DNA of 25,551 bases from a virus: positions 1-25,551 of IMG/VR virus record IMGVR_UViG_3300046004_000055; one strand, given 5' to 3'. Under the pieces are notes generated by a model. It saw only the letters and a program-made list of their open reading frames with translations, made no database searches and was not told the origin of the DNA. How positions within the stretch are numbered: position 1 is the first letter of the stretch; every line of letters begins with the position of its first letter. Positions 6,018-25,551 of the stretch are shown here, piece by piece. A program made the translations under genes and the position numbers.

Positions 6018-6238
6018 TAGTCCTCCAAACCTATGTTAACTCCAGGCATTGGTGCTGTAGCAATAGATCCGCACTCAATACATTCCATATCTGAAAAGTA
6101 AGTTACTATACTGCCTTCTTCATCCCAGCTTACTTTTAAGTTCCATACATAGCAACCGCACACACAGGTCATCGTAGGTTGTCCACGAAGATCCATAGCG
6201 CTTGTGTAATCTGGCTTAGCGTCATTAATGTCTTTCAT
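6017..6238 (-). CDS. Small zinc-ribbon-like protein
   Basis: This 73-residue protein of unknown role has two cysteine clusters, C25-x-C27-G-C29 and C53-x2-C56-G, separated by a beta-rich stretch (VWNLKVSW, GSIVTYF). This is the layout of a single zinc ribbon. The ATG at 6238 has a strong SD (AAAGGAG, seven bases upstream). The gene overlaps the WhiB gene by 14 bases and the primase by one base, so it is translated with them. Position suggests an accessory replication or regulatory factor, but nothing in the sequence identifies its partner. Confidence 0.65.
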   Translation of the reverse strand: MKDINDAKPDYTSAMDLRGQPTMTCVCGCYVWNLKVSWDEEGSIVTYFSDMECIECGSIATAPMPGVNIGLED

Positions 6239-6470
6239 CTCTTATCTCCTTTCTTTCTTTAGGGGTAGTTCCTGCCCATATACCGTCAAGATCTACGATA
6301 GGAACTGCGTATTCAAAACAAGTATCAAGCATCCAGCAATCTTTACAGACCGCCTTAGCTTTTGCCACCGCATCTACATCGTCGTACTTATCTGGAAAAA
6401 AGATCTCCGGATCCGCATCTAGGCAAAGCTGCGTACCATTAAAAGGATTGTGTTGGATTAAAAGATCCAT
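6225..6470 (-). CDS. WhiB-family iron-sulfur transcription factor
   Basis: The 81-residue protein has the WhiB cysteine set C16, C42-x2-C45-x5-C51, which would bind a 4Fe-4S cluster. It also has the glycine turn GIWAGTTP (63-70) followed by a basic stretch (KERKEIRDERH) that matches the DNA-binding end of the family. WhiB proteins act with the primary sigma factor of Actinobacteria and are found only there and in their phages, so this gene is the best host indicator in the window. I chose the ATG at 6470, which has AGGA upstream and gives a 32-base overlap with the helicase gene. A GTG at 6527 would extend the protein by 19 residues that look like out-of-frame helicase sequence. It overlaps the zinc-ribbon gene by 14 bases. 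Confidence 0.88.
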   Translation of the reverse strand: MDLLIQHNPFNGTQLCLDADPEIFFPDKYDDVDAVAKAKAVCKDCWMLDTCFEYAVPIVDLDGIWAGTTPKERKEIRDERH

Positions 6471-7680
6471 ATTCCTGAAACTTCCCCTCTTCCCAGTCCC
6501 AAAGCAGGTCAACGGATGCTGGCCCACAGTTACGGCTTGCTACGATTCTTAGTTCACGAGTTGTGTCGTCTTCTTCGTCCTGCTTCTGTAGTCCAAGGAT
6601 TACATCTGAATCCTGGAAGAACGATGACGAGTAACCAATAGAGTCAGCAGACACTTGGCGTTTCTTCATCTTCCAAAGCAATACCTGGGTAGAGATAACT
6701 ACTGGGAGCTCATACTTCTGAGCTAAGCGTTTTAGACTGCGTGTGATATTAGTCAGGGCCTGTGGAGTATTTGACTCTCCGGTAGACTCATCAACCATAA
6801 GATACACACCATCTACAAACACTACATTTGGTCGAAGCTTTTCAATCTTCGCAGCAAGACCTGTAACAGTCATTGCTGAAGTAGAGTCAGTAAGATAGAA
6901 CTTATGCATTTCTGCCATCTTCTCAAGCGTTTCTTTATAGCGCTTCTCTTCATCTACATGAAGCTTTCCCCGAGTAAGCCTAGAGTGGGCAATGTGAGCA
7001 CGCATAGCATCGTGACGATGTTGCTGCTCAATGTTGCTCATCTCAAAGGATTGGAACATCGGAACAAACCCGTCTTCGTGAATGTTGACCGCAACCTGCA
7101 ACGCCAGAACAGACTTACCTGTCTTAGGTGGTGCAATGATAGTAATTAACTGTCCTGGTTGTAGTCCTGCAGTTGCTTCGTCAATAGTCTTAAAGCCTGT
7201 AGCAAGACCGAGTAAACCGTTTGGACGAGTCTTTATAGCAAGATACTCATCAAAACGACCCATGGCATTCTTAGTAAGATCTATATCGGTACTGGTGCCG
7301 GCGTTCTCATCATAGATTGTTGAGACACCCTTAGACATCGCAGCAATAGCAGCGTCGTGGTTTCCTTCTGAGATAAACTCAGCAGCGTCCTGCACGACTT
7401 CAATTGTCTTTTGTCGTTTACGGTAATCTACTAACTGGTCTACTAAATACTCTAGAGAGTCTTCGACAGCTAGTAGTCGGTACATAGGGAAGTTATCCTT
7501 GACCGTTACGGCTGTAGGAACTTCTTGGTACCTAGTCCAGTGTGTACGGATGAACTTCCACATGGCGCGGTTCTCATCCACAAAGAACCAGCTGTCATCT
7601 ACCCCAGCCTCTAGGGCAGGGGTCAACTCCCTAGTTCTAATTATTCTGGAGAGTAATCTCTCTTCATTATCTGCTGCCAC
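6439..7680 (-). CDS. DnaB-like replicative DNA helicase
   Basis: The 413-residue protein has a DnaB-type N-terminal helical domain (about 1-95), a linker, and a RecA-like motor domain from about 155. The Walker A is APPKTGKS (183-190), followed by the SFEMS block (220-224) with the catalytic glutamate. The Walker B strand is NVVFVDGVYLM, where the usual DYLQ-type ending is DG. A sensor-like PVVISTQ and late blocks DSDVILGL and SRNCGP are also present. It would form the hexamer unwinding the phage fork, loaded by the DnaC-like protein encoded at 8382-9029 and working with the separate primase. The start is GTG at 7680; no ATG in frame would keep the N-terminal domain. It overlaps the upstream unknown gene by 14 bases. 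Confidence 0.88.
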   Translation of the reverse strand: MAADNEERLLSRIIRTRELTPALEAGVDDSWFFVDENRAMWKFIRTHWTRYQEVPTAVTVKDNFPMYRLLAVEDSLEYLVDQLVDYRKRQKTIEVVQDAAEFISEGNHDAAIAAMSKGVSTIYDENAGTSTDIDLTKNAMGRFDEYLAIKTRPNGLLGLATGFKTIDEATAGLQPGQLITIIAPPKTGKSVLALQVAVNIHEDGFVPMFQSFEMSNIEQQHRHDAMRAHIAHSRLTRGKLHVDEEKRYKETLEKMAEMHKFYLTDSTSAMTVTGLAAKIEKLRPNVVFVDGVYLMVDESTGESNTPQALTNITRSLKRLAQKYELPVVISTQVLLWKMKKRQVSADSIGYSSSFFQDSDVILGLQKQDEEDDTTRELRIVASRNCGPASVDLLWDWEEGKFQEYGSFNPTQSF

Positions 7681-10239: not shown

Positions 10240-13200
10240 CTACTGTCTAAAGACAACCCTGTCAATGTCGAAGCTTTGGGCTGCAGTATAAGTGGCAGAT
10301 GTGTACGAAACTGTAAGGATTGCATAAGCTGCGCCAGCAATAGTATTAGAAGGAAATGACTTAGCTAGGTAAGTCCAGCGATTAGCAACGCTTATAGTAG
10401 CGGTGTTAGCACGGCCACCAGTTGTAGTCACATCTGTTCCGCTAACTAATACTTCATCAATAACTCTTTGGCTAGCCGCACTGAATACCCCATCAGGGTA
10501 TGAGTACACATTTACAACTGCTCCCGAAGAATCATAGAAGTCTACCTTTAAGGTGTAGGTTCCTAAAGCTGTTGTAGAGCGAAGCGCTACTGACGCATAG
10601 TACCCGGCATTAGGGGCCAAAAATATTTCGTCTGTTGATAACCCAAACGTTGCCGTACCATTTACAGATACCGCATGACAGTACGCCATACCTTGAGTAG
10701 CAGTGTCATCAGACAAAGAGCCTTGAGTAACAACGCGTGTAAGAGTAGCATTAGTACCTTGCCAGGATCCCAAACTCAATTCAAAAGAACTAGAGGGAAT
10801 TAGCGATTCTGTAAGATCTTGGTATGTAAGTCCATAAAGACCTGGAAGAATAGACCAACTACTGCCTTTAGGAAGATAGGATGGTAGTGTCGCCTCTAAT
10901 CGAGAAAGCTTAGTTCGATAGTTATGGAGGTAAAGGCCTAAACTCGCACCGGCATTTTCAGAGATAACCGCCCACATATTTTTTGATGTGGTAAGCGGAT
11001 TTACTAACTCTATAGTAGAAGTGTCTCCCTTATCAACAAAAGAACTTGGTGTGAGGCCATACTGTACTTGAACACCATCGATGTGAAATTTTGTTCCACC
11101 AGTCGCAGTGATAGTAAGGGGAACAGTAGTTTGCCCAGCAACTAGTTGCTCAACCTTAGATATTCTTGTCCAAAGATTTTCACCAGAAGCGGGGACAGTA
11201 AAAGTTTTAGAGTTTAAAGTGTATGTTCCAGTAGTACTTCGAACGTAAGCAGAGATCACAATGTCTTCTCCGCCTAAAGCAGTGTTAGGAAGATACGCCG
11301 TTGTGCTTACCGAACCTGTTGTAGTGTAGGTTGCTTTACCAAAGTAACCTCCGAATAAAGGTACGTAGGTTGAGTCGGTAGCTACTCTAGTTAATGTTGT
11401 TCCTGCAGCAGCAGTCCATCCGGTAGTGTTGTCTTGAAAAGATGAGTTTGGTACGTAATTATACTTTGTAGTAATTTCCCAACGACAATCGTTAGGTGCG
11501 TAGTACGTGTCTAGTACAGGGCTATCAGGTACCACACCACCATCACCTGAGAAGTACCTACTATTAGTAAGTCCGCGTTCTACAATGCACCCGTCAATCC
11601 AGAATTGGTCACCAGAAGAACTATTAGGAAAATAAAGAGACACTTTAGCTAGAGGCATGCCCGCATCTTTACTGTACGGAGGAGCTAATGCAGACACACT
11701 TATTTGCACTCCTTCATCCGTTTCTAGTTCTACAGGGTCGGAGTCAATAAAGTATGGGTCTTCAGGATAGTAGTCCCCATCTTCATCTGTAAGAATATCT
11801 ACTTGGTTTTCTAGGGTTAGTTGGCTCGAGAACTCAATACGTGCTACAGCATCCTGGGCAGAAGACCCTACAACATAGGAACCAAATGTATACTCAGTCC
11901 CTGGGATAATAGGGAACCAGTCAGAGATTATTGCAGCTGAAGTAGTAGACGCAGTTAATAGCGCGGCTGCATCTCCGTGTACTAGGGCGCTGGTTTTTGT
12001 GGTGTCTAGGGAAAGGTCGCCATTTAAACTAGACCAAGAAGATGTTCCGTATTCAAAGCTAGAGTTTAGTAAGTAGTTAGTGCGCTCCCCCTGTACGTAC
12101 ACATTTATACGACGAGCATCTTGAAACTCTAGGCTTTTATTAGCTTCTGCAAATTGCAGCATATCTAACCCAAAACTTGCAGCAGTTGCGCTGCTAGGGT
12201 CTATGACAATTTCTAGAGCGGCGTATACCGAATTACGTGGAGACATTATTCCAGTACGTCCAGAGTCTGACGGACTTACGAATTCTAACCAACTACCCTC
12301 GGCTGTAGTTACTGTAGTTCCATAAGAGGTGCTAGAAATTAATGCTCCAGTTCCGTTGTACCAATGGATCTTAGTTTTTACGTCCGCAGATACTCCTGAT
12401 TGAAGTTGTGTAACTTGTCCACTGAATACATACCGAGTAAGCTCAGAGATAGGTACACCATAAAGAATAGGGCTTTGACTAGTAGAGGGCAGCAAGAGCG
12501 TTACTGGAGAACTTGAAGAAGTACTAAGTTTTCCAAAAGCTACTTTTCTTGGTTGGAAAACACGGTCGTACAATACACTGACAGGGGTTGCTAAACTTTC
12601 GTCAACATAAGTTGTGGAAACAAAAGTACCAGAACCGGCAGACCAACGACCAATAGACTCTTCAAATGAGGAGTCATCATAATCAAGCATTAAGTTATGC
12701 CCTACGATAACGTCATCTGCCCAATGTGTTAGCGCTGTTACGTACGTGCTTACTCCGGTAGTTGTGCCTTTGTAAGAATTAATGATGTGTCCGGTAGCCG
12801 CTAAAGTTCTATGGTATTGATCACCAAGAGCGGGCTCTACTGTAAACCCTAAGTCTGTAACTTTAGATTCTAACAAAGAAGACTGCACAAAGGAGGGGTT
12901 ATTTTGTAGCCCTAAAAGATACGCTTCAACACGAAGCTTATCGTAAATAAATGTAAAGGCCCCTAGCATTGTTACTAAACTATCAGGGTTATTTTCACCT
13001 GTGGCATCACCAATACCTTCAACAGAGTTTAGCCAAGCTTTAGGCCACCATCGAGATACTTGTTGTAGTAAGTCTGTCTCTGCAACTTTATGTGCGTAAG
13101 CGCCCCCAGAAAAAATCCACTTACTACCATTAAAGACCCAAATAGAGTAGCTAGTTTCAATGCTTCCTAGATACGCGGAGTCTATGTACAGATTAGTAAA

Positions 13201-13449
13201 TTGACTGTACACACCCCCGATTAAAGTAGTGCCTCTTTCTGGGTTATCTGGAATTCCAGCATCACTTCGAACAAGTTTCCAATGAGTCATAGCACCATCA
13301 GCAGGGTCTGTAAGCACTGGCTTCCAACTAACAGAGACCATATTAAAGTCTGTAGGAATGGCTACTATCTCAGAGTTATAGTAAACACTAGCTGCTGAAA
13401 TCTCGCCGTATTTAAATGTACCGTATCTGTTATATCCATAGCGGGCCAT
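10240..13449 (-). CDS. gpI-like baseplate/tail protein with four carbohydrate-binding-like modules
   Basis: This 1069-residue protein is probably a receptor-binding baseplate protein. It opens with MARYGYNRYGTFKYG, a start common in phage baseplate proteins, then a fibronectin III-like region (about 25-120). Residues about 125-245 (DLLQQVSRWWPKAWL, LGAFTFIYDKLRVEAYLLGL, LESKVTDLGF) resemble P2 gpI. Four jelly-roll, CBM4/9-like modules follow, each starting with a SFE/SFQ...W motif and ending with a D[GRM] plus hydrophobic strand: about 250-435, 457-627, 664-798 and 882-1069. Module 2 carries an acidic insertion (551-571) that may bind calcium. Such modules bind sugars and suit recognition of host cell-wall polysaccharide. 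The start lies in TAATG with the baseplate J gene. Confidence 0.8.
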   Translation of the reverse strand: MARYGYNRYGTFKYGEISAASVYYNSEIVAIPTDFNMVSVSWKPVLTDPADGAMTHWKLVRSDAGIPDNPERGTTLIGGVYSQFTNLYIDSAYLGSIETSYSIWVFNGSKWIFSGGAYAHKVAETDLLQQVSRWWPKAWLNSVEGIGDATGENNPDSLVTMLGAFTFIYDKLRVEAYLLGLQNNPSFVQSSLLESKVTDLGFTVEPALGDQYHRTLAATGHIINSYKGTTTGVSTYVTALTHWADDVIVGHNLMLDYDDSSFEESIGRWSAGSGTFVSTTYVDESLATPVSVLYDRVFQPRKVAFGKLSTSSSSPVTLLLPSTSQSPILYGVPISELTRYVFSGQVTQLQSGVSADVKTKIHWYNGTGALISSTSYGTTVTTAEGSWLEFVSPSDSGRTGIMSPRNSVYAALEIVIDPSSATAASFGLDMLQFAEANKSLEFQDARRINVYVQGERTNYLLNSSFEYGTSSWSSLNGDLSLDTTKTSALVHGDAAALLTASTTSAAIISDWFPIIPGTEYTFGSYVVGSSAQDAVARIEFSSQLTLENQVDILTDEDGDYYPEDPYFIDSDPVELETDEGVQISVSALAPPYSKDAGMPLAKVSLYFPNSSSGDQFWIDGCIVERGLTNSRYFSGDGGVVPDSPVLDTYYAPNDCRWEITTKYNYVPNSSFQDNTTGWTAAAGTTLTRVATDSTYVPLFGGYFGKATYTTTGSVSTTAYLPNTALGGEDIVISAYVRSTTGTYTLNSKTFTVPASGENLWTRISKVEQLVAGQTTVPLTITATGGTKFHIDGVQVQYGLTPSSFVDKGDTSTIELVNPLTTSKNMWAVISENAGASLGLYLHNYRTKLSRLEATLPSYLPKGSSWSILPGLYGLTYQDLTESLIPSSSFELSLGSWQGTNATLTRVVTQGSLSDDTATQGMAYCHAVSVNGTATFGLSTDEIFLAPNAGYYASVALRSTTALGTYTLKVDFYDSSGAVVNVYSYPDGVFSAASQRVIDEVLVSGTDVTTTGGRANTATISVANRWTYLAKSFPSNTIAGAAYAILTVSYTSATYTAAQSFDIDRVVFRQ

Positions 13450-17867: not shown

Positions 17868-19737
17868 TTTGGGAATCTCCGTTATCTTCAACAGCAGTGT
17901 AGTTCTTATATTGAGTTACGTCTAGAGCACCCTGGCCTTTTTTGTCATCTCCGCTTGCTTTTAATGGGCTATAGGCAGGGTAACGAGTAAAGGATAAGTC
18001 TACTGTGCTAAACATAGGTACCATTTTATCAGTAAACATTACGTGGTTTACAGAAAATCCTGCTACCGACCCAAACACTCTAAAGTTATCGTTTAGGTAA
18101 AGCCAACATGGTACACCGGTTGTGTACCCAAAGTCTGCCGACCTTCCTTTATATGAAGGATTAAATAATAAGTTATTTTCTGTAGGGTTGCCATTAAGCA
18201 CTCTGTATAGAAATTCTATATCGTATTCAGTTCCACGGTTAAGTATTCCGTCTACTTCTTCTTGCTGAAGTTCTCGCGGATACCCTCTGTAGTTACTATG
18301 CTGCAAAGCAGTCATATCCATAACACGGTTTAGGTAGAGAGATAAATTTATAGTTTGGTTTCCAGCTAAAAGTACAGAGACGTCAGCTGCACCCAAGGTC
18401 CAGTCAATACTGTTATTAGCAGAAGTACTGTAGTTAAATGTGGTCGGGTTATACATAAACCTAAAGCCCCAAATCTTAGGGCCCTTATCATCGTACAACT
18501 CTATTTTACTATTATTTAAAGCTTTTGCAGAAGCAGAATCTTGAAATAAGCGTCCTCGTTCAAAATTAAGGGTGTTAAGGTAAGTTAAGTTTTTTACTTG
18601 GGCTGCAGTCAGACGCGTAGTCTCCCATGAGTTTACTTCGTTAGATATTAGGTCACCAAATGACATACTTCTACTAACAGTATGTGGGGGAGGATTCCAT
18701 CTTAGGTCTGCAGTAGGCGGCTTAGCTACAACAGCCACTGGTGGCTTGTTGTCTTCCGTAACACCGCCATTTCCCGAACCGCCATTTCCCGAAGTGCTTC
18801 CCGAGCAATCTCCCGATCCTGCAGCCATATTTTTTAACTTTTTTATTTGAGCCATAACTTCTGATGGCCAAACATTTTGGTCTTTTCCAGCTGATACAAA
18901 CTTTCTTTTGATCGGCGTAGCTAGTCCAGTACCGTCTGCTTTTGTTGTGTACAGGGTCATAAAAAACCCCGGTTTAGCAGACGATGTGGCATCAGTTTGA
19001 CTGTCTTCAAGACGAAGGCTATACCACAATTTGTCACAGCTGTTGTAAATAGTATACGGACTATTAGCACTTGCTGTTTTAAGGGACTGAGGAATTTTAG
19101 GGGCTTTAGGGGCGGTGCTAACTTTTAAAGTTGGGTTAGGCCCCTTCAGTGTAGGGTGTTGAGTACTGGCATTAGGATCAACATCTGTACCGGATGAGCC
19201 TGTAGGACAGCAGGTACTATCGTTAGTAATATCAATCTTGAATTTTACCGCGGCAAAGTCCCCTGTTTCTTTTGCCTTAAGCGTAAACATAAAAGCTACG
19301 CCTAGATTATGCGGGCTAACTCTGTCAGGAGATTTTACAGCACTTGCTATAATGTATTTGCCGAAATCAGTATGTTCTGCTTTTGTTTGAATTTTTCCTC
19401 TAGCAAACTTATTGTAACCATTCCAGGTGCTATCGATACTAAGCGTTACTAGGTCTCCGCTTAAGTTAGGGAGCCAATAGTGGTGGTTGTTCGCGTTGTT
19501 CTTCATGTAGACACGAACAAGGTATAAAAGCTCTGTACCTTTTTGGATAGTAGTTTTCTTTTTAGAGCTTACTAGGGTCTCAGCCTGCTCTTGCATCCAA
19601 GCATCGCCAGAAAACACAATTCTATTTGTAATAGCGTCATCAAGTGCTTTGGTTGCATCATCTGTAGCGCCGTGAAAACGACTAGCAATATCAAAGTTTT
19701 CCCAAATTTCTACCGTGTAATAGTATGAAAAAGACAT
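17860..19737 (-). CDS. Large tail protein with CIS-tube-like C-terminal domain
   Basis: The 625-residue protein has three parts. Residues 1-300 are beta-rich and not recognised, with a CC pair at 176-177. Residues about 305-350 are a Gly/Ser then Pro-rich linker (GSTSGNGGSGNGG, PPVAVVAKPPTADLRWNPPP). Residues about 355-590 form a second domain with WGFRFMYNPTTFNYSTSANN, LLAGNQTINLSLYLNRVMD, TEYDIEFLYRVLN, PCWLYLNDNFRVFGSVAGFSVNH and MFSTVDLSFTRYP. This matches the contractile-injection-system tube/initiator family (Afp7-like), whose members cap the tube near the hub. The gene's place between tape measure and LysM-hub genes agrees. It starts in TAATG after the tape measure gene. Confidence 0.65.
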   Translation of the reverse strand: MSFSYYYTVEIWENFDIASRFHGATDDATKALDDAITNRIVFSGDAWMQEQAETLVSSKKKTTIQKGTELLYLVRVYMKNNANNHHYWLPNLSGDLVTLSIDSTWNGYNKFARGKIQTKAEHTDFGKYIIASAVKSPDRVSPHNLGVAFMFTLKAKETGDFAAVKFKIDITNDSTCCPTGSSGTDVDPNASTQHPTLKGPNPTLKVSTAPKAPKIPQSLKTASANSPYTIYNSCDKLWYSLRLEDSQTDATSSAKPGFFMTLYTTKADGTGLATPIKRKFVSAGKDQNVWPSEVMAQIKKLKNMAAGSGDCSGSTSGNGGSGNGGVTEDNKPPVAVVAKPPTADLRWNPPPHTVSRSMSFGDLISNEVNSWETTRLTAAQVKNLTYLNTLNFERGRLFQDSASAKALNNSKIELYDDKGPKIWGFRFMYNPTTFNYSTSANNSIDWTLGAADVSVLLAGNQTINLSLYLNRVMDMTALQHSNYRGYPRELQQEEVDGILNRGTEYDIEFLYRVLNGNPTENNLLFNPSYKGRSADFGYTTGVPCWLYLNDNFRVFGSVAGFSVNHVMFTDKMVPMFSTVDLSFTRYPAYSPLKASGDDKKGQGALDVTQYKNYTAVEDNGDSQND

Positions 19738-22598
19738 TAGAAGGTACCCAATCCTTTCAATCGTAGCTCTCTTTCAAGATCAGCTTTAAATGCTGAGAGC
19801 ATAGCCTTAGCTCCAGCAGGAGATGCTTGAGCAATATTTACATTCATATCTACCTTAATTGTAACATTAGAGTTTGCTGACACATTAGCAGAACCTGCCT
19901 GACGCATTGGGGGAGCTGTTGCAACTCCCATGCCCATTTCAGACGACCCGCCGCCTTGACCAGTCTTTACTCTTTCAGCATCGTCTAAGAATTTAGCAAA
20001 GGTGCCGTCCTTATATGTGCTCCACCTAGCCCAGTTATTTCCGTGGCCTGTCATGTGGTAGGCAACTTTAGCGTTGGTTAGCGGATTAAATAGATCTCTG
20101 TTTCCAGACAACTTAAAGGTCTTACCTTGATTATCTTTCCAGTGCTTTGATAAACGTTCTTTCTGAAGCGCTCCAAGCATGTTAATTTGGAATAGGCCGT
20201 AAGAATTATCACCTGTTTTATGGTTGTCGTTGTGGGCATTAGCACGGCCACCAGATTCAGCTAGGGCTACTGCAAACGCTGTGTTTAAGCCTTTACCCTT
20301 AAATCCAACCTTGCTGAGAAGTTGCATTAGGCCTTTACGACCTCCGCCTACCATACTTCCAGAGTCACCAGAAACTTTATCTGTAACAGTGTTCATGCTC
20401 TTAAATCTAGAACCCAACATTTTTTGCGCATCATTAAAATCTAGTGGTGCACCAAATCCAGAGCCAAGAAGAGATGCTAAGTCCGAAGAGGAGAGCTCGC
20501 TCATAGATGTAAACTTTTCCATAGATCCTGATGAACCATAAGAAGAGCGGCGCACTTGGGACGTAAAGTTTTCAAATGGTTCTGTGTATCCCTTTTTACC
20601 AATGATATTGGCAGGGTTAATCTGTACGCCTTTTTTATTTAAAATTTCAAAGTGAAGATGGGGACCTGTAGAGTTACCTGCTCCAGGTGCCCCCGGCTTA
20701 CCGCCAGATTTACCAATAACTTGATTTGCCCTAATCTTGTCGCCCTTACCTACCTGCATAGAGCTTAAGTGGGCATAGCGGGATGAGTATCCATTTGGGT
20801 GTTTAATAACAATGTTATTTCCCCAACCAGATCCTTGTCCAACAAAGGTTACTACACCAGGGCCAACGGACTCAACTGGTGTTCCTACCCTAACTCCATA
20901 GTCTACGCCTCGGTGAAAACGACTAATAGTTCTAGACCCTCTTCTTGGTCCCCATGGAGAAGTTATAGGGCTTGCCGCAGGTACTGGGCTTGACATAAGA
21001 GCTGTCTCTTTAGGTCCAGCCACCCCCATGTTCATTGTGTTACCTGTTGGGCCGCCCATACCAAATAGCTGACCAAGTGCGTTACCGCCACCGGCAAGTA
21101 GCGCACCTATAATTGCACCAGGTCCAGCGGCAACTCCCATACCCAGTGCTCCTACAGCAGCACCACCAGCTGCACCTATTCCAGCAGATTTAAGTACAGA
21201 TCCCCAGTCAAAGCCACCTTTCTTTTTAGCGTCACTGTAGCCACCATAAGCAGATAGTGCGGTGCCAAGTACTGGAACACCTTTACCTAAAAACTTAGCG
21301 CCCTTACTAAGAGCGCCCATTAATCCACCGGCACCTTTTACGATTCCACTTCCTCCACTTGCCAGACTGGCAGCGCCGGTCTTACCCATCATGCCTTTTA
21401 GCATCTTGAGCTGTAGTGCGGATACTCCCAAGCCTACTGCACTAGAAACGCTATTAGACACAGTTGCGCCCATATTTCCAGCATTAGGCATAGTTTCTAA
21501 AATGCCCTTAAATGTCATCAAGGCTTTTGTTACTCCAGGCAACGTTTCAGCTAAAGAACTAAAGCCGTTGTTTAATGCGGCTGTAGCGTTAAGTCCAGTA
21601 TTGTATCCACCTACTAAGCCTTGCTCTGTGGCTGCAAGCTTGCGGTTTTCACTAGACTGATAGTTAAAGTTAGAACGAGTAGGGCTGCTCTTGTCTACAC
21701 CCATAACATCTAGAATCTTGTTTGGATCTTTACTGGTCATTGCTTTATTAAACTTAGATGCGCTACCTGCACTAGCACGAGCTAGAATACCCGCGCTTAA
21801 CGCCTGCTGTAGGTTTGCGTCCCCACCAGTTAATGTTTGAAGAGTAGCATAGCCTTTAGAACCAGGGTTTAAGATAAGTGCTGCTTGTTCCTTTGTGATT
21901 TTTTGACCACGGAACATAAAGTTGTATACTTCATTGATAAGCTGATTCATAGGGCGTAAATTGCCCTTGTCATCACGAAGTCGAATTCCGCCTCGTAAGA
22001 AGCCCATTCCGTTTGCGCCAGCAATACTTGCAGCTACTTGTTCGTTAGTACCGCCAGTAAGCGCACTCATTGAGCCGAGTTGACTCATGATGTTCTTAGA
22101 GCTTACAGAACTAGCACTGTACCCGCCGCCGTACATAAGCGTAGCCTGTGCCATAGTTGGGCCCATAGCGCTTGTAGCGCCACCGCCTACTTGACGATTA
22201 GCCTGAAGTATAGCTCTGCGAGAACTCATGCCGCTTAGACCGGCGTAAGAGTCTGCGCCTAGTCTCTGTGTTACAGCAGCCATTGTATTTGGTGCCATAC
22301 CCATAGCTGCAGAGCCAACAGCCATTACAGCCATGCCTGCATAACCCGCAGCACGTTTAATAGGGCTTAGGCCAATACGCCCTGAGCCTACCTTATCAGA
22401 GTCTTCTGAGACTTTGATCTTTCCGGCTTCTTTGTTAGCATCCTTTATATCTTTAAGGATGCCCTCAGTATACTTCTTTACTTCTTTAAAGCCCTTTAGT
22501 AAGTTTTTAGGGATGCTGTTTACATCGATGTCTTCGCCAGTTACAGAGGTGCCCTTTGCCTCATCTGACGCGCCAACCATGCTTTGCGCACCTGCCAT
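19737..22598 (-). CDS. Tape measure protein with M23 peptidase and lysozyme-like domains
   Basis: The 953-residue protein sets tail length and probably opens the cell wall during DNA entry. Residues 1-530 are Ala/Gly/Ser-rich and helical, with a glycine-rich hydrophobic stretch (465-515) that may insert into membrane. An M23 endopeptidase domain follows (545-665) with H562-x3-D566, H610 in YAHLS, and H647-L-H649 in PHLHFE, all the expected zinc and catalytic residues. A transglycosylase/lysozyme-like domain (755-875) has the glutamate E781 in ALAESGGRANAHN and the NSYGLFQIN block. The C-terminus has a strand-helix end typical of tape measure proteins. The ATG at 22598 follows the frameshift ORF by five bases. 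Confidence 0.92.
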   Translation of the reverse strand: MAGAQSMVGASDEAKGTSVTGEDIDVNSIPKNLLKGFKEVKKYTEGILKDIKDANKEAGKIKVSEDSDKVGSGRIGLSPIKRAAGYAGMAVMAVGSAAMGMAPNTMAAVTQRLGADSYAGLSGMSSRRAILQANRQVGGGATSAMGPTMAQATLMYGGGYSASSVSSKNIMSQLGSMSALTGGTNEQVAASIAGANGMGFLRGGIRLRDDKGNLRPMNQLINEVYNFMFRGQKITKEQAALILNPGSKGYATLQTLTGGDANLQQALSAGILARASAGSASKFNKAMTSKDPNKILDVMGVDKSSPTRSNFNYQSSENRKLAATEQGLVGGYNTGLNATAALNNGFSSLAETLPGVTKALMTFKGILETMPNAGNMGATVSNSVSSAVGLGVSALQLKMLKGMMGKTGAASLASGGSGIVKGAGGLMGALSKGAKFLGKGVPVLGTALSAYGGYSDAKKKGGFDWGSVLKSAGIGAAGGAAVGALGMGVAAGPGAIIGALLAGGGNALGQLFGMGGPTGNTMNMGVAGPKETALMSSPVPAASPITSPWGPRRGSRTISRFHRGVDYGVRVGTPVESVGPGVVTFVGQGSGWGNNIVIKHPNGYSSRYAHLSSMQVGKGDKIRANQVIGKSGGKPGAPGAGNSTGPHLHFEILNKKGVQINPANIIGKKGYTEPFENFTSQVRRSSYGSSGSMEKFTSMSELSSSDLASLLGSGFGAPLDFNDAQKMLGSRFKSMNTVTDKVSGDSGSMVGGGRKGLMQLLSKVGFKGKGLNTAFAVALAESGGRANAHNDNHKTGDNSYGLFQINMLGALQKERLSKHWKDNQGKTFKLSGNRDLFNPLTNAKVAYHMTGHGNNWARWSTYKDGTFAKFLDDAERVKTGQGGGSSEMGMGVATAPPMRQAGSANVSANSNVTIKVDMNVNIAQASPAGAKAMLSAFKADLERELRLKGLGTF

Positions 22599-22603
22599 TT
22601 AAC

Positions 22604-23567
22604 TCACCGCCTTAAATTGTTAGCTGACATTTTGAGCCAGTTAATTCTTTCAGAATAAGTAAGAGTTTTAATCTCACTTAGCGTCCATCCCGGATGAAGA
22701 CTGCTTAGGGTGTAGTACGTCTCCATAAGAGTTTCATAGTCCGTTTTCTCAAAACAAATCCGCTAAGGTTAGCGGTAGCGGCACCTCCTGGCCGCAAGAA
22801 GCACATGGCTTCTTTAGCTCACTAAGCTGTGGGCCTGGGTTACGTTTTGTAATCTCATCTACAAGTGTTCTACGATCTTTAATAGTTAGTTTTCTAACTT
22901 GATCCGCCGACATAATCGGCGTATCATTAATAGAGATAATGCACTTTCGTAGAAGAATAGTGTCTAGCTCTGCTGAGGTCTTAGAAGCCCCGCTTACTAG
23001 TTCTCTCTGAGTTGCCCCATTAGGCAAAGCTACCAATACATCACCTAAAGAAGTAGGGAGTGTGAACTCTCTATCTCCCTCTAGCTTTTTCATTGGTACG
23101 TCCTTATCTAGGTTTACATCAAATACCTGTTGCGTTTCGCACTTAGGGCAAGCACCTGGTCCAAGTTTAATATCAGAGCCGAAGGTGATCTTTCTAATTG
23201 CTAGCAAAAGCATTTCACGATCTCCGGCTAACATAAGATCTAGGATCTCTTTGTTAGCAGGGCTATTACCAATCTTTACTGTGCCACGATCTAAGATCTC
23301 TAATAGAGCTTTTCCAGTATCAGTTATCTTAGAGATAGCTTCCTCATCCACTCCGTTAAGTTCTCTAATCTCTGCTGTCATAGCTACTCCTTCAAATGGA
23401 TCATAAAATCCACCAAGTAGTTCTACCTCTGTAGCAGAAGGCAACGTTAGAGGTTCTTTTTGAACCTGGACAGTTGCCTCCTGCTCAGCAAGAGATATGG
23501 CATCAGAAACAGCTTTGTTTGCTAATGCTGGATTAGTTGACGCATTTATAGTCGAATCTGTAGTCAT
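22604..23567 (-). CDS. Tail assembly chaperone, long form made by predicted +1 frameshift
   Basis: This entry joins the 272-residue short form to a 48-residue ORF in the +1 frame (22604-22750), giving about 320 residues. The second ORF has no usable start near its 5' end: TAG closes the frame 14 codons' worth of overlap earlier than any SD-supported ATG, and the only ATG (22726-22724) lacks an SD. It begins EKTDYETLMETYYTL and continues through HPGWTLSEIKTLTYSERINWLKM. This fits the small second domain of phage tail chaperones, usually encoded just before the tape measure gene and made by frameshift (lambda G/GT). The ORF ends five bases before the tape measure ATG. Confidence 0.65.
22748..22775 (-). 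promoter_or_regulatory. Predicted +1 frameshift site with upstream hairpin
   Basis: In the zero frame the chaperone ends TTG TTT TGA G. After decoding TTT, tRNA-Phe can move one base forward onto the next TTT, because four T's stand in a row (22751-22754). The stop TGA is then skipped and GAG is read in the +1 frame. This is the same logic as bacterial prfB (CTT TGA). A perfect 7-base inverted repeat CCGCTAA/TTAGCGG (22760-22775) lies five bases 5' of the slip codon and could influence the event. An SD-like AGGAGG (22784-22789) is too far upstream to act as in prfB. Confidence 0.6.
22749..23567 (-). CDS. Tail assembly chaperone / T4 gp26-like protein, short form
   Basis: The 272-residue protein is encoded between the tail tube and the tape measure genes, the usual place for the tail assembly chaperone. 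It has two CxxC pairs: C140-x2-C143 in ACPKCETQQVFDVNL and C255-x2-C258 in CASCGQEVPLPL. They flank an acidic helical middle region and would form a zinc site. The block REMLLLAIRKITFGSDIKLG ahead of the first pair resembles the T4 gp26 type of baseplate/chaperone protein in T4-like phages. The N-terminal 45 residues look disordered. The ATG at 23567 has AAAGGA six bases upstream. The stop codon is the TGA at the predicted frameshift site, so both short and long forms may be made. Confidence 0.72.
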   Translation of the reverse strand: MTTDSTINASTNPALANKAVSDAISLAEQEATVQVQKEPLTLPSATEVELLGGFYDPFEGVAMTAEIRELNGVDEEAISKITDTGKALLEILDRGTVKIGNSPANKEILDLMLAGDREMLLLAIRKITFGSDIKLGPGACPKCETQQVFDVNLDKDVPMKKLEGDREFTLPTSLGDVLVALPNGATQRELVSGASKTSAELDTILLRKCIISINDTPIMSADQVRKLTIKDRRTLVDEITKRNPGPQLSELKKPCASCGQEVPLPLTLADLF

Positions 23568-23590: not shown

Positions 23591-24274
23591 TTATACCGAG
23601 AATGTGCTCTTAGCAGATTGATCTTTAGTGTACCCAGTTCCGTAAATAACTTCAAAACCTTCGTGTACCAGTGTCATCTCTTCTACAAGAGCGGTGTTCG
23701 CACCTGCGTCAAGACTACCATAGGTAAGGTTTGTGATCCAAGCGTTATACACTCGGAAGCGAAGAGATGTGTGCTGGTCAAGGATACTAGACTGTGGTGC
23801 AGTCGAATCTGATCCGGCCCAAGCACCTGGGTTTGGATGTGATAGTACCTGAATGTCTAGCTGGCAGCGGAAATCTAATCCGGCACCGCTAGCTCCTTCA
23901 GTTCCTTGCTTTGGGGTGATGATTTGGAATAAGCGCTTCATCCATAGTGAGTTCTCATGCTTTCCTAGCATTACGCCCTTTGATAATGTAATAGGAGTAA
24001 ATGAAGATTGGCCTGGGAACTGATGGAAGTTAGTGTTGTAGCCACCTTCGCGGTATGCGATAGGTTCAGTTGTTACGCTTAAACCTGAAAGTGATACGAA
24101 ACCAAGTTTTCCAAAGTTAGCGCCCCAAGTACCTGTACTACCTGCAGCAGGCTTATCATTAGGGGTGATGGTAACAATGAAACGAAAATTACGGACTGGG
24201 TCAGTAATTAAGTGTGATAGGGGATTTACAACTGCGGTGTCTGCCGCATTTGTTGTTGCTGGGGGGGTTGCCAT
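23591..24274 (-). CDS. Tail tube protein (T4 gp19-like)
   Basis: The 227-residue protein is the subunit of the inner tail tube. Family features are NFRFIVTITP near the start, FVSLSGLSVTTEPIAYREGGYN (the GL...E.I.YREGG block shared by gp19-type tubes), FPGQSSFTPITLSKGVMLG, and a late strand pair VEEMTLVHEGFEVIYGTGY. It directly follows the sheath gene, the standard order in contractile tails, and precedes the chaperone and tape measure. The ATG at 24274 has the SD TTAAGGAG about nine bases upstream. A Thr/Ala-rich N-terminus of about 25 residues is probably flexible. Confidence 0.93.
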   Translation of the reverse strand: MATPPATTNAADTAVVNPLSHLITDPVRNFRFIVTITPNDKPAAGSTGTWGANFGKLGFVSLSGLSVTTEPIAYREGGYNTNFHQFPGQSSFTPITLSKGVMLGKHENSLWMKRLFQIITPKQGTEGASGAGLDFRCQLDIQVLSHPNPGAWAGSDSTAPQSSILDQHTSLRFRVYNAWITNLTYGSLDAGANTALVEEMTLVHEGFEVIYGTGYTKDQSAKSTFSV

Positions 24275-24287
24275 TTATATTTTCTCC

Positions 24288-25551
24288 TTAAGCCGTAGCG
24301 GAACCGGTAAGTTGTCCAAGCTTAATGACAACGAACTCTGTAGGGTATTGAAGAGCAACGCCAACCTCAATGTTAATTCGGCCGGCTTGAATATCGGCAA
24401 AAGGAGTGGTTGTGCTATCGCACTTTACGTAAAATGCCTGTGCTGGGTTAGCGCCACGAAGACCGCCTGCTTGCCAGTACATGCGCAAGAAATTAGAGAT
24501 CGATGTGCGTAGGCTTAGCCATAGGCGTTCATCGTTGTTTTCAAACACTGCAAAAGCGCTACGTTCAGATAGCTCTTTTTCAATGTAGATAAGTGAACGA
24601 CGAATATTGATGTAGCGATTTTCTGGGGTATTGTCCATTGTACGGCCACCCATAATTACAAGACCATTACCTGGTACTTGACGAATCGCATTAAGAGGGG
24701 TGATGGTTGTGTTGATGTCGTCAAGCTCTGCATTAGTGAATTGGTGCTCTGTAGCCACAGATAAAGCAATTCGGTTGTTATATCCGGCAGGAGTCTTAAA
24801 GACACCGCGAGATGCGTCAGTAGCTAGATACTGACCAACTACAGAAGCTCCTGGAGCCTGAAGGCGTAGAGTGCCTTGAGCTTTAGTTGTATCTGGGATG
24901 TAGAACCAAGGATAGTAAGCTGCTACGTTTCCACCTGTAGAGGTAGCCGCGTAGATTGCTTTGATATCGCTAGCTTGAGTTTTTGCATCAGCAACGTTCA
25001 GTCCTGAAGGAGTATCAACAACTGCAAACACGTCTGTACGAGAAGATGCGTAAACTACTACATCTCCAGCAAGCTGTCCTGATAGTTCATCAGTAGATGC
25101 ATATGCGGCATCTGGGTTGTACGCAACGAGAGGATTATCGATTGGGTCAAATAGAGTCCACGCAGTCTGATAAGCAGAACGAGCAGGCGCAGAGCCATTA
25201 GCTCCGCCGCTTAGTGCGGTTACTGATCCACCAAGTGCTGGAGTTACTTCTTCGTCTACGCCCGAGATACGGATATACGCTGATGAAGAGTTGATTACAG
25301 AAAGAACATAGTTACGGTCTGTAGGATCCATGCTTAGGTCAGTAAATTGTTCTACTGGATTTGATAAAGCGTTACCAAAGATTGTTGGTGCGCCGTAAAC
25401 GATAAGTCCAAAGCGTGCTGCGCTTCCCGCAACTACAAGCTTTACGCCGTAGCTTGAGGACCATGCGCCAGCTGAAGATGCGGTTACTGTAAACGCATTA
25501 TTAGCTGGGTCATCACCATCAGTGATAGTTACTGTACCAGCGGCTGCTCTT
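24288..25551 (-). CDS. Contractile tail sheath protein, C-terminal part, runs off right edge
   Basis: The reading frame is open through the right edge of the window; the internal ATG at 25331 is not the start. About 420 residues are visible. The first part has FTVTASSAGAWSSSYGVKLVV, like the W-G-x-G/S-x-x block of sheath proteins. The middle has NGLVIMGGRTMDN and NIRRSLIYIEKELSERSAFAVFE. The end has the classical sheath C-terminus GLRGANPAQAFYVKCDSTTTPFADIQAGRINIEVGVALQYPTEFVVIKLGQ. Sheath subunits wrap the tube and contract on host binding. Its presence makes this a contractile-tailed phage. The gene is followed after 13 bases by the tube gene. Confidence 0.95.
   Translation of the reverse strand, partial: RAAAGTVTITDGDDPANNAFTVTASSAGAWSSSYGVKLVVAGSAARFGLIVYGAPTIFGNALSNPVEQFTDLSMDPTDRNYVLSVINSSSAYIRISGVDEEVTPALGGSVTALSGGANGSAPARSAYQTAWTLFDPIDNPLVAYNPDAAYASTDELSGQLAGDVVVYASSRTDVFAVVDTPSGLNVADAKTQASDIKAIYAATSTGGNVAAYYPWFYIPDTTKAQGTLRLQAPGASVVGQYLATDASRGVFKTPAGYNNRIALSVATEHQFTNAELDDINTTITPLNAIRQVPGNGLVIMGGRTMDNTPENRYINIRRSLIYIEKELSERSAFAVFENNDERLWLSLRTSISNFLRMYWQAGGLRGANPAQAFYVKCDSTTTPFADIQAGRINIEVGVALQYPTEFVVIKLGQLTGSATA

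Follow-up and report, generated by a model that had tools for sequence, protein, structure and literature searches.

A conserved UUU_Y site at the end of a T4-type tail assembly chaperone gene very probably directs a programmed +1 ribosomal frameshift that yields the long form of the chaperone (TAC-NC, 'GT'). One version of this site lies in the window, that is, the whole stretch of viral DNA analyzed here (25,551 nucleotides; IMG/VR record IMGVR_UViG_3300046004_000055), where a sequence-only reading had predicted a +1 shift at TTT producing a long chaperone of the G/GT type. That prediction is supported by comparison of homologous loci: a +1-frame extension and TTT-[C/T] are kept in all 104 distinct homologous junctions, so that the junction in the window is not a product of chance. 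Judged from the compared sequences, the observation made in the window is real and holds far beyond the window itself. The same evidence supports conserved coding in the +1 frame, a unique re-pairing codon, and selection on a hairpin located upstream of the site.

The chaperone locus

The window carries, on the minus strand, the genes for the tail sheath, the tail tube, a 272-aa protein, the tape measure and the baseplate, in this order. The relevant features are as follows.

24288..25550, minus strand: tail sheath protein, running off the window
23591..24274, minus strand: tail tube protein (gp19-like), immediately upstream of the chaperone
22749..23567, minus strand: predicted tail assembly chaperone, short form (TAC-N, 'G'), 272 aa, T4 gp26/gp51 (PF12322) family
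22783..22788, minus strand: GGAGGT, Shine-Dalgarno (SD)-like, 29 nt upstream of TTT (about 13 nt when the folded hairpin is discounted)
22760..22775, minus strand: predicted upstream hairpin CCGCUA-ACCU-UAGCGG, ending 5 nt before TTT
22751..22754, minus strand: putative shift site UUU_U, with TTT at 22752-22754
22749..22751, minus strand: 0-frame stop TGA, ribosomal A site
22604..22750, minus strand: +1-frame extension (TAC-C, 'T' domain), 48 aa plus stop, the stop at 22604-22606
19737..22598, minus strand: tape measure protein, 953 aa, its ATG starting at 22598

The layout originally described, with a chaperone ORF ending in TTT TGA and a 48-codon +1 ORF in the gap before the tape measure gene, proved right in both coordinates and features. 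The 3' end of the chaperone ORF reads GAT TTG TTT TGA, and the +1 frame stays open for 48 codons (22607-22750), closing just before the tape measure ATG; the fusion product would have about 320 aa.

The 272-aa protein occupies the position typical of a chaperone gene, between tail tube and tape measure, and matches Pfam T4_baseplate (PF12322; E 4.5e-8) and the baseplate hub family phrog_150 (E 2.8e-8). Its AF2 model (pLDDT 93.4) is closest to T4-like baseplate hub assembly proteins in the viral structure library, and among PDB entries the best fold match is with 2ob9, a tail assembly chaperone from HK97 (prob 0.99, E 0.048). GenBank phage rows were left out of the input for structure prediction.

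Elsewhere in the window, an M23 peptidase domain and a lysozyme-like (SLT_3) domain are both contained in the tape measure protein (19737-22598, minus strand), and a 1069-aa protein of the baseplate and tail region (10240-13449, minus strand) has no PHROGs match at E 0.01. The gene for a WhiB-like regulator (6225-6527, minus strand; phrog_472, E 5e-15) points to an actinobacterial host for the window phage, and the clade to which this phage belongs appears to be a group of T4-like phages, with actinobacterial ones among them.

Conservation of the +1-frame extension

Homologues were sought once with the window protein and twice with alignments, which gave 84 plus 78 loci in which the junction was readable, drawn from Streptomyces phages and from freshwater and GC-rich contigs. 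The analyzed set consisted of 104 distinct junctions, corresponding to 71 clusters at 80% identity, with subsets of 45 clusters and of 41 (freshwater) clusters used in some of the comparisons.

Across the 104 junctions, the extension is usually 40-80 residues long, apart from a few that are shortened by a contig end, and it carries the motif (P)GW(S/T)L.E(I/L)..L..RER..W. The -1 frame at these junctions encodes only short, unconserved peptides, and the T domain is never in the -1 frame within the +1 clade. By the measure of substitution rates, the T domain is under purifying selection, with a pN/pS ratio of 0.44 and pN lower than pS in 820 of 820 pairs of the freshwater set. Its AF2 model consists of three helices (pLDDT 87). 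The proposal that the +1 peptide is the second domain of a chaperone is borne out by profile comparison, in which the T domain aligned with that of T4-like phages (hhalign E 2.9e-5, probability 74%) and weakly matched Phage_P2_GpE (best E among relatives, 1.9e-4); thus, in sequence it resembles a known chaperone second domain.

The extension might instead be a separate small protein, translated from its own start (ATG 22726, METYYTL) or by ribosomes that re-initiate once they have passed the chaperone stop. The window ORF indeed contains this in-frame ATG, and GenBank lists the homologous ORF as a gene of its own, for a 'hypothetical protein', in phages BRock, LuckySocke, Alone3 and GiJojo. 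However, in 9 of the 45 clusters the +1 frame offers no ATG, GTG or TTG anywhere from the beginning of the overlap to the conserved motif, so that a separately started T protein cannot be the rule in this family. Furthermore, conserved residues (F and Y) lie upstream of the possible start codons. Every junction is in the +1 phase, and TTT-Y does not vary, GC-rich genomes included; re-initiation would need neither of these. No relative lacking the ORF was found among these loci, in line with the original view that the small ORF is not separately started, and we regard independent translation of T as very hard to credit. In Streptomyces phage pSt2308 (locus L005, 3682-3940), the T reading frame is present and not annotated.

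The putative UUU_Y shift site

In 71 of 71 clusters, the overlap has a TTT codon with C or T next to it: TTT-C in 67 and TTT-T in four, including the window. TTT is present in all 45 overlaps of the corresponding subset and is the sole codon able to re-pair after a +1 step in 41 of them. In the GC-rich clusters, the Phe codon at the site is TTT in 15 of 15 cases, whereas the other Phe codons of the gene are split 5 TTT to 97 TTC; the probability of this outcome by chance is about 2e-20 if phylogeny is ignored. The codon preceding TTT encodes Leu in 69 of the 71 clusters.

A -2 slippage, or transcriptional slippage, would bring translation into the identical final frame, but the former would need tRNA-Phe to pair with UGU, and the run at the site comprises only 3-4 T in all +1 members, which, to our knowledge, is too short for any known case of the latter. 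We give these two alternatives next to no weight.

The A-site codon is CGN in 46 clusters, CAR in 16, CTY in five, TAA in two, TAG in one and TGA in one; that is, CGN, CAR or CTY in 67 of the 71, a stop in four and UGA in a single one. From these counts, TTT-TGA, as found in the window, is one of the rarer forms of the UUU_Y site. Conservation of the +1-frame peptide (104/104), which had been put forward as a check on the prediction together with that of TTTTGAG, is thus confirmed, whereas TTTTGAG itself is not conserved: what is conserved across these clusters is YTN-TTT-Y together with the hairpin upstream of it.

The distribution of A-site codons also bears on the original suggestion that the shift resembles that of prfB, with slippage driven by UGA and gated by release factor 2 (RF2). 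The likeness is genuine insofar as both would involve a +1 slip at a Y-rich codon, in the window before UGA: TTT-TGA resembles CTT-TGA, and UUU belongs to the next tier of shift-prone codons in front of a stop (PMC10274946). However, prfB combines an obligatory UGA with an SD three nucleotides upstream, whereas the +1 clade has mostly CGN or CAR in the A site, with the few stops including TAA and TAG, and a hairpin next to the E site. No SD is found three bases before the shift codon, GGAGGT being 29 nt away. Given the spread of A-site codons, RF2-specific gating cannot be the shared mechanism. Moreover, a WhiB gene is present in the window, and Actinomycetota lack prfB frameshifting altogether; in M. 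smegmatis it works poorly, with an efficiency of about 6% (PMC12421855). We therefore abandon this part of the sequence-only reading, which we now consider highly improbable.

The upstream hairpin and the SD-like element

The inverted repeat that had been noticed five bases upstream of the site was confirmed: CCGCTAA-CC-TTAGCGG in DNA, at 22760-22775, 5 nt before TTT, folding in RNA into a 6-bp stem with a 4-nt loop. Perfect GC-rich hairpins of 6 bp occur six times in the 25.5-kb coding strand (0.23 per kb). The stem of the window is modest on its own (6 bp; z -1.15 versus dinucleotide shuffles), and hairpins of the window type outperform synonymous recodings with p of 0.002 and 0.006. In all 41 freshwater clusters, the fold of the 27-nt stretch preceding TTT surpasses those of synonymous recodings (p about 0.001-0.03). 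Over the 71 clusters, the hairpin beats synonymous recodings at p<0.05 in 43, which substantiates the importance attributed to the repeat, and is not convincing in 28; these p-values are given as counts since the clusters are not independent, and their Stouffer combination was unusable (one p of 1).

The position of the stem is more uniform than its sequence, with the stem ending 0-6 nt before TTT in 70 of the 71 clusters. The freshwater stems use at least two registers, CCGCUA/UAGCGG and CUGCCA/UGGCAG, which change in a coupled manner (Fisher p 3e-8, phylogeny ignored), and in other clusters unrelated stems are found at the same place (CCCAC/GUGGG, GUCCCC/GGGGAC and GUUCCGA/UCGGAAC). Because the stem uses two registers, an RNAalifold consensus of the 41-sequence alignment was misleading, and the registers were counted separately instead. 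We also considered a GCGG/CCGC pairing, with which GGAGGT would lie in a loop, and discarded it, as its variation is not compensated. Synonymous conservation, another check proposed at the outset, is strongest in the last ~20 codons of the gene (obs/exp 1.49 versus a mean of 0.99) and is relaxed at the hairpin-loop codon (obs/exp 0.70). Taken from these patterns, selection on the hairpin at the RNA level is supported. In the 50 nt downstream of the site, no consistent fold was found in the +1 clade (mean z -0.45).

The SD-like element is present as nnG-GAG-GT in 41 of 41 freshwater clusters, although the residue before Glu varies, and in the 71 clusters GAG is used for 64 of 64 Glu at this position. 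The element alone compares weakly with recodings, standing out in 19 of the 71 clusters, and the conserved GAG-GT 29 nt from TTT could in part be a product of Glu-Val codons.

The shift at UUU_Y might also occur with neither element acting as a stimulator, slow A-site codons being enough and the RNA being conserved for, say, mRNA stability or translation of the tape measure gene. TTT-Y is universal and the hairpin is not, and for the UUU_CGU shift of influenza A PA-X, effects of the A- and E-site codons are named in the accessible part of the report, an upstream hairpin not among them (PMC3498833). However, the stems of unrelated sequence all end 0-6 nt before TTT, at a position of the kind where an upstream hairpin stimulates +1 shifting in vitro (PMC6321510). 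We consider a shift without a stimulatory hairpin unlikely, albeit the strongest of the competing accounts, and hold the hairpin to be probably a helper of the UUU_Y shift.

T4-like relatives and the direction of the shift

T4-like chaperones share with that of the window the PF12322 family, the position of the gene and the kind of T domain at the junction. Vladimirov, Gautam and Davidson are said to have described in 2022 a -1 shift in several groups of T4-like chaperones and the separate genes 26 and 51 in T4. A 2016 review excepts T4 from the GT-type frameshifting of tail chaperones (PMC5009743), and the T4-like chaperones were identified after that review (Vladimirov 2022, as cited in PMC12846349).

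In P-SSM2, S-PM2, HTVC008M, phiM12, phiW-14 and ViI, a similar T domain follows the same gene in the -1 frame, and the end of T4 gp51 resembles T-domain sequence. A run of six or more T marks the junction in five of these six -1 controls (all except ViI), and the jumbo phages Phosso and Atu_ph07 have TTTTTTC with a -1 extension. Thus, as far as their junctions indicate, most T4-like relatives outside the +1 clade shift -1 at T runs, whereas the clade of the window appears to shift +1 at UUU_Y with an upstream hairpin. In the tree, the +1 clade and the -1 controls are split with 99/99 support, and hence the direction of the shift follows phylogeny; phage RM378 adjoins the +1 clade. This Rhodothermus phage (NC_004735; locus L111, about 2041) has a +1 (or -2) extension after TCC TTT TTT TGG.

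A strong downstream hairpin is present in three of the five -1 controls tested. Under a mirror-image rule, the -1 controls would have a downstream hairpin only; P-SSM2, S-PM2 and phiM12 fit this rule and phiW-14 and HTVC008M do not, so that it is only a tendency. In P-SSM2 and S-PM2 (loci L104 and L105, about 2185-2230), the hairpins, which are strong (z -4.5 and -6.7), directly follow the -1 site TTTTTTC on its 3' side, and GGAGGG precedes TTTTTTC by ~10 nt, a dnaX-like -1 signal. LR756508, a 484-kb uncultured huge phage (locus L307, gene 1501-2241), has a 7-bp hairpin, one codon, TTT-CTA and a +1 extension, possibly the same signal far from the +1 clade.

Comparison with other recoding systems

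Two forms of a chaperone are likewise made from one gene upstream of the tape measure gene in lambda (G/GT) and P2 (E/E'), but there by a -1 shift on XXXYYYZ-like sites. Frameshifting in G/GT tail chaperones is itself old, and the UUU_Y +1 shift is a T4-type variation on this known system. A +1 shift at TTT-CGC has been predicted for the chaperones of haloarchaeal myoviruses of the HF1 group (PMC7230728), and HSTV-2 (PMC5009743) has an annotated +1 tail chaperone with TCC-TTT-CGC in frame (locus L312, 15470-15515). These haloviruses resemble the window clade in having a tail chaperone with a predicted +1 shift at TTT and differ from it in their archaeal hosts. Their assignment to the same family was rejected, HF2 and HSTV-2 having no PF12322 match; a simple upstream hairpin was not seen in HSTV-2, and this phage apparently came to use UUU_CGN in its tail chaperone independently.

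In the influenza A PA-X mRNA, the +1 shift at UCC_UUU_CGU was demonstrated by mass spectrometry and is explained by a move of tRNA-Phe to UUC (PMC3498833). PA-X has the P-site UUU_C in common with 67 of the 71 clusters and a CGN codon in the A site in common with 46 of them, the window having TGA there; it differs in its eukaryotic ribosome, in the unrelated gene and, in the accessible part of that report, in that no upstream hairpin is named. The Listeria phages PSA, A118 and A500 also employ +1 shifts in structural genes, at CCC_UGA (PMC5009743), but these genes encode major capsid and tail proteins instead of a tail assembly chaperone, and the codon is one for proline.

Proposed mechanism and implications

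Under the favored reading, most ribosomes would end or continue in frame 0, giving the short form. At a slow A-site codon (UGA in the window, mostly CGN or CAR in the relatives), some peptidyl-tRNA-Phe would step one base forward, and the tRNA, with its GAA anticodon, would re-pair on UUU or UUC, so that the T domain is translated. The hairpin would re-form in the wake of the ribosome, roughly one codon 5' of the P site, where it probably drives the mRNA forward or prevents a backward slip, and the SD-like GGAGGT perhaps acts together with it. We infer the movement of the tRNA, the roles of the hairpin and the SD-like element, the ratio of the two products, and the function in tape-measure assembly.

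On 70S ribosomes, a hairpin next to the E site promotes +1 and hinders -1 shifting, a synthetic upstream hairpin reaching ~60% of the +1 stimulation by an SD (PMC6321510). The conserved layout fits this effect combined with a UUU_C/CGN +1 site as in PA-X (PMC6321510, PMC3498833). More tentatively, and with a little less than even confidence, we propose a natural bacterial +1 signal in which the main stimulator is a hairpin that re-forms at the E site, at the back of the ribosome, the direction of the shift having been exchanged within the T4-type chaperone gene: -1, with a T run and in some relatives a downstream hairpin, versus +1, with UUU_Y and an upstream hairpin, in this clade. Two published results count against the favored reading: the effect of the hairpin on 70S ribosomes appeared only without RF2 (PMC6321510), and in E. 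coli UUU_U is a weaker shift site than CUU_U (PMC5009743).

Few natural bacterial +1 signals are known, and for forward shifts a general motif has yet to be identified, according to the authors of PRFect (PMC10274946). In the open-access literature, we found no report of a +1 version in the T4-type family and none in which a naturally occurring upstream hairpin promotes +1 shifting; the hairpins reported to do so were in synthetic constructs. The family described here comprises more than 100 natural variants of one signal, consisting of an SD-like element, a hairpin, a Leu codon, UUU, and C or T. Because the +1 effect of an upstream hairpin is, as far as we found, confined to synthetic constructs, the family would be a natural case for testing the mechanism. 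For annotation, the finding means a correction in Streptomyces phages, where the T ORF is now either a separate hypothetical gene or left out. Finally, a homologous gene in which the direction of the shift has changed could be used to ask what sets this direction.
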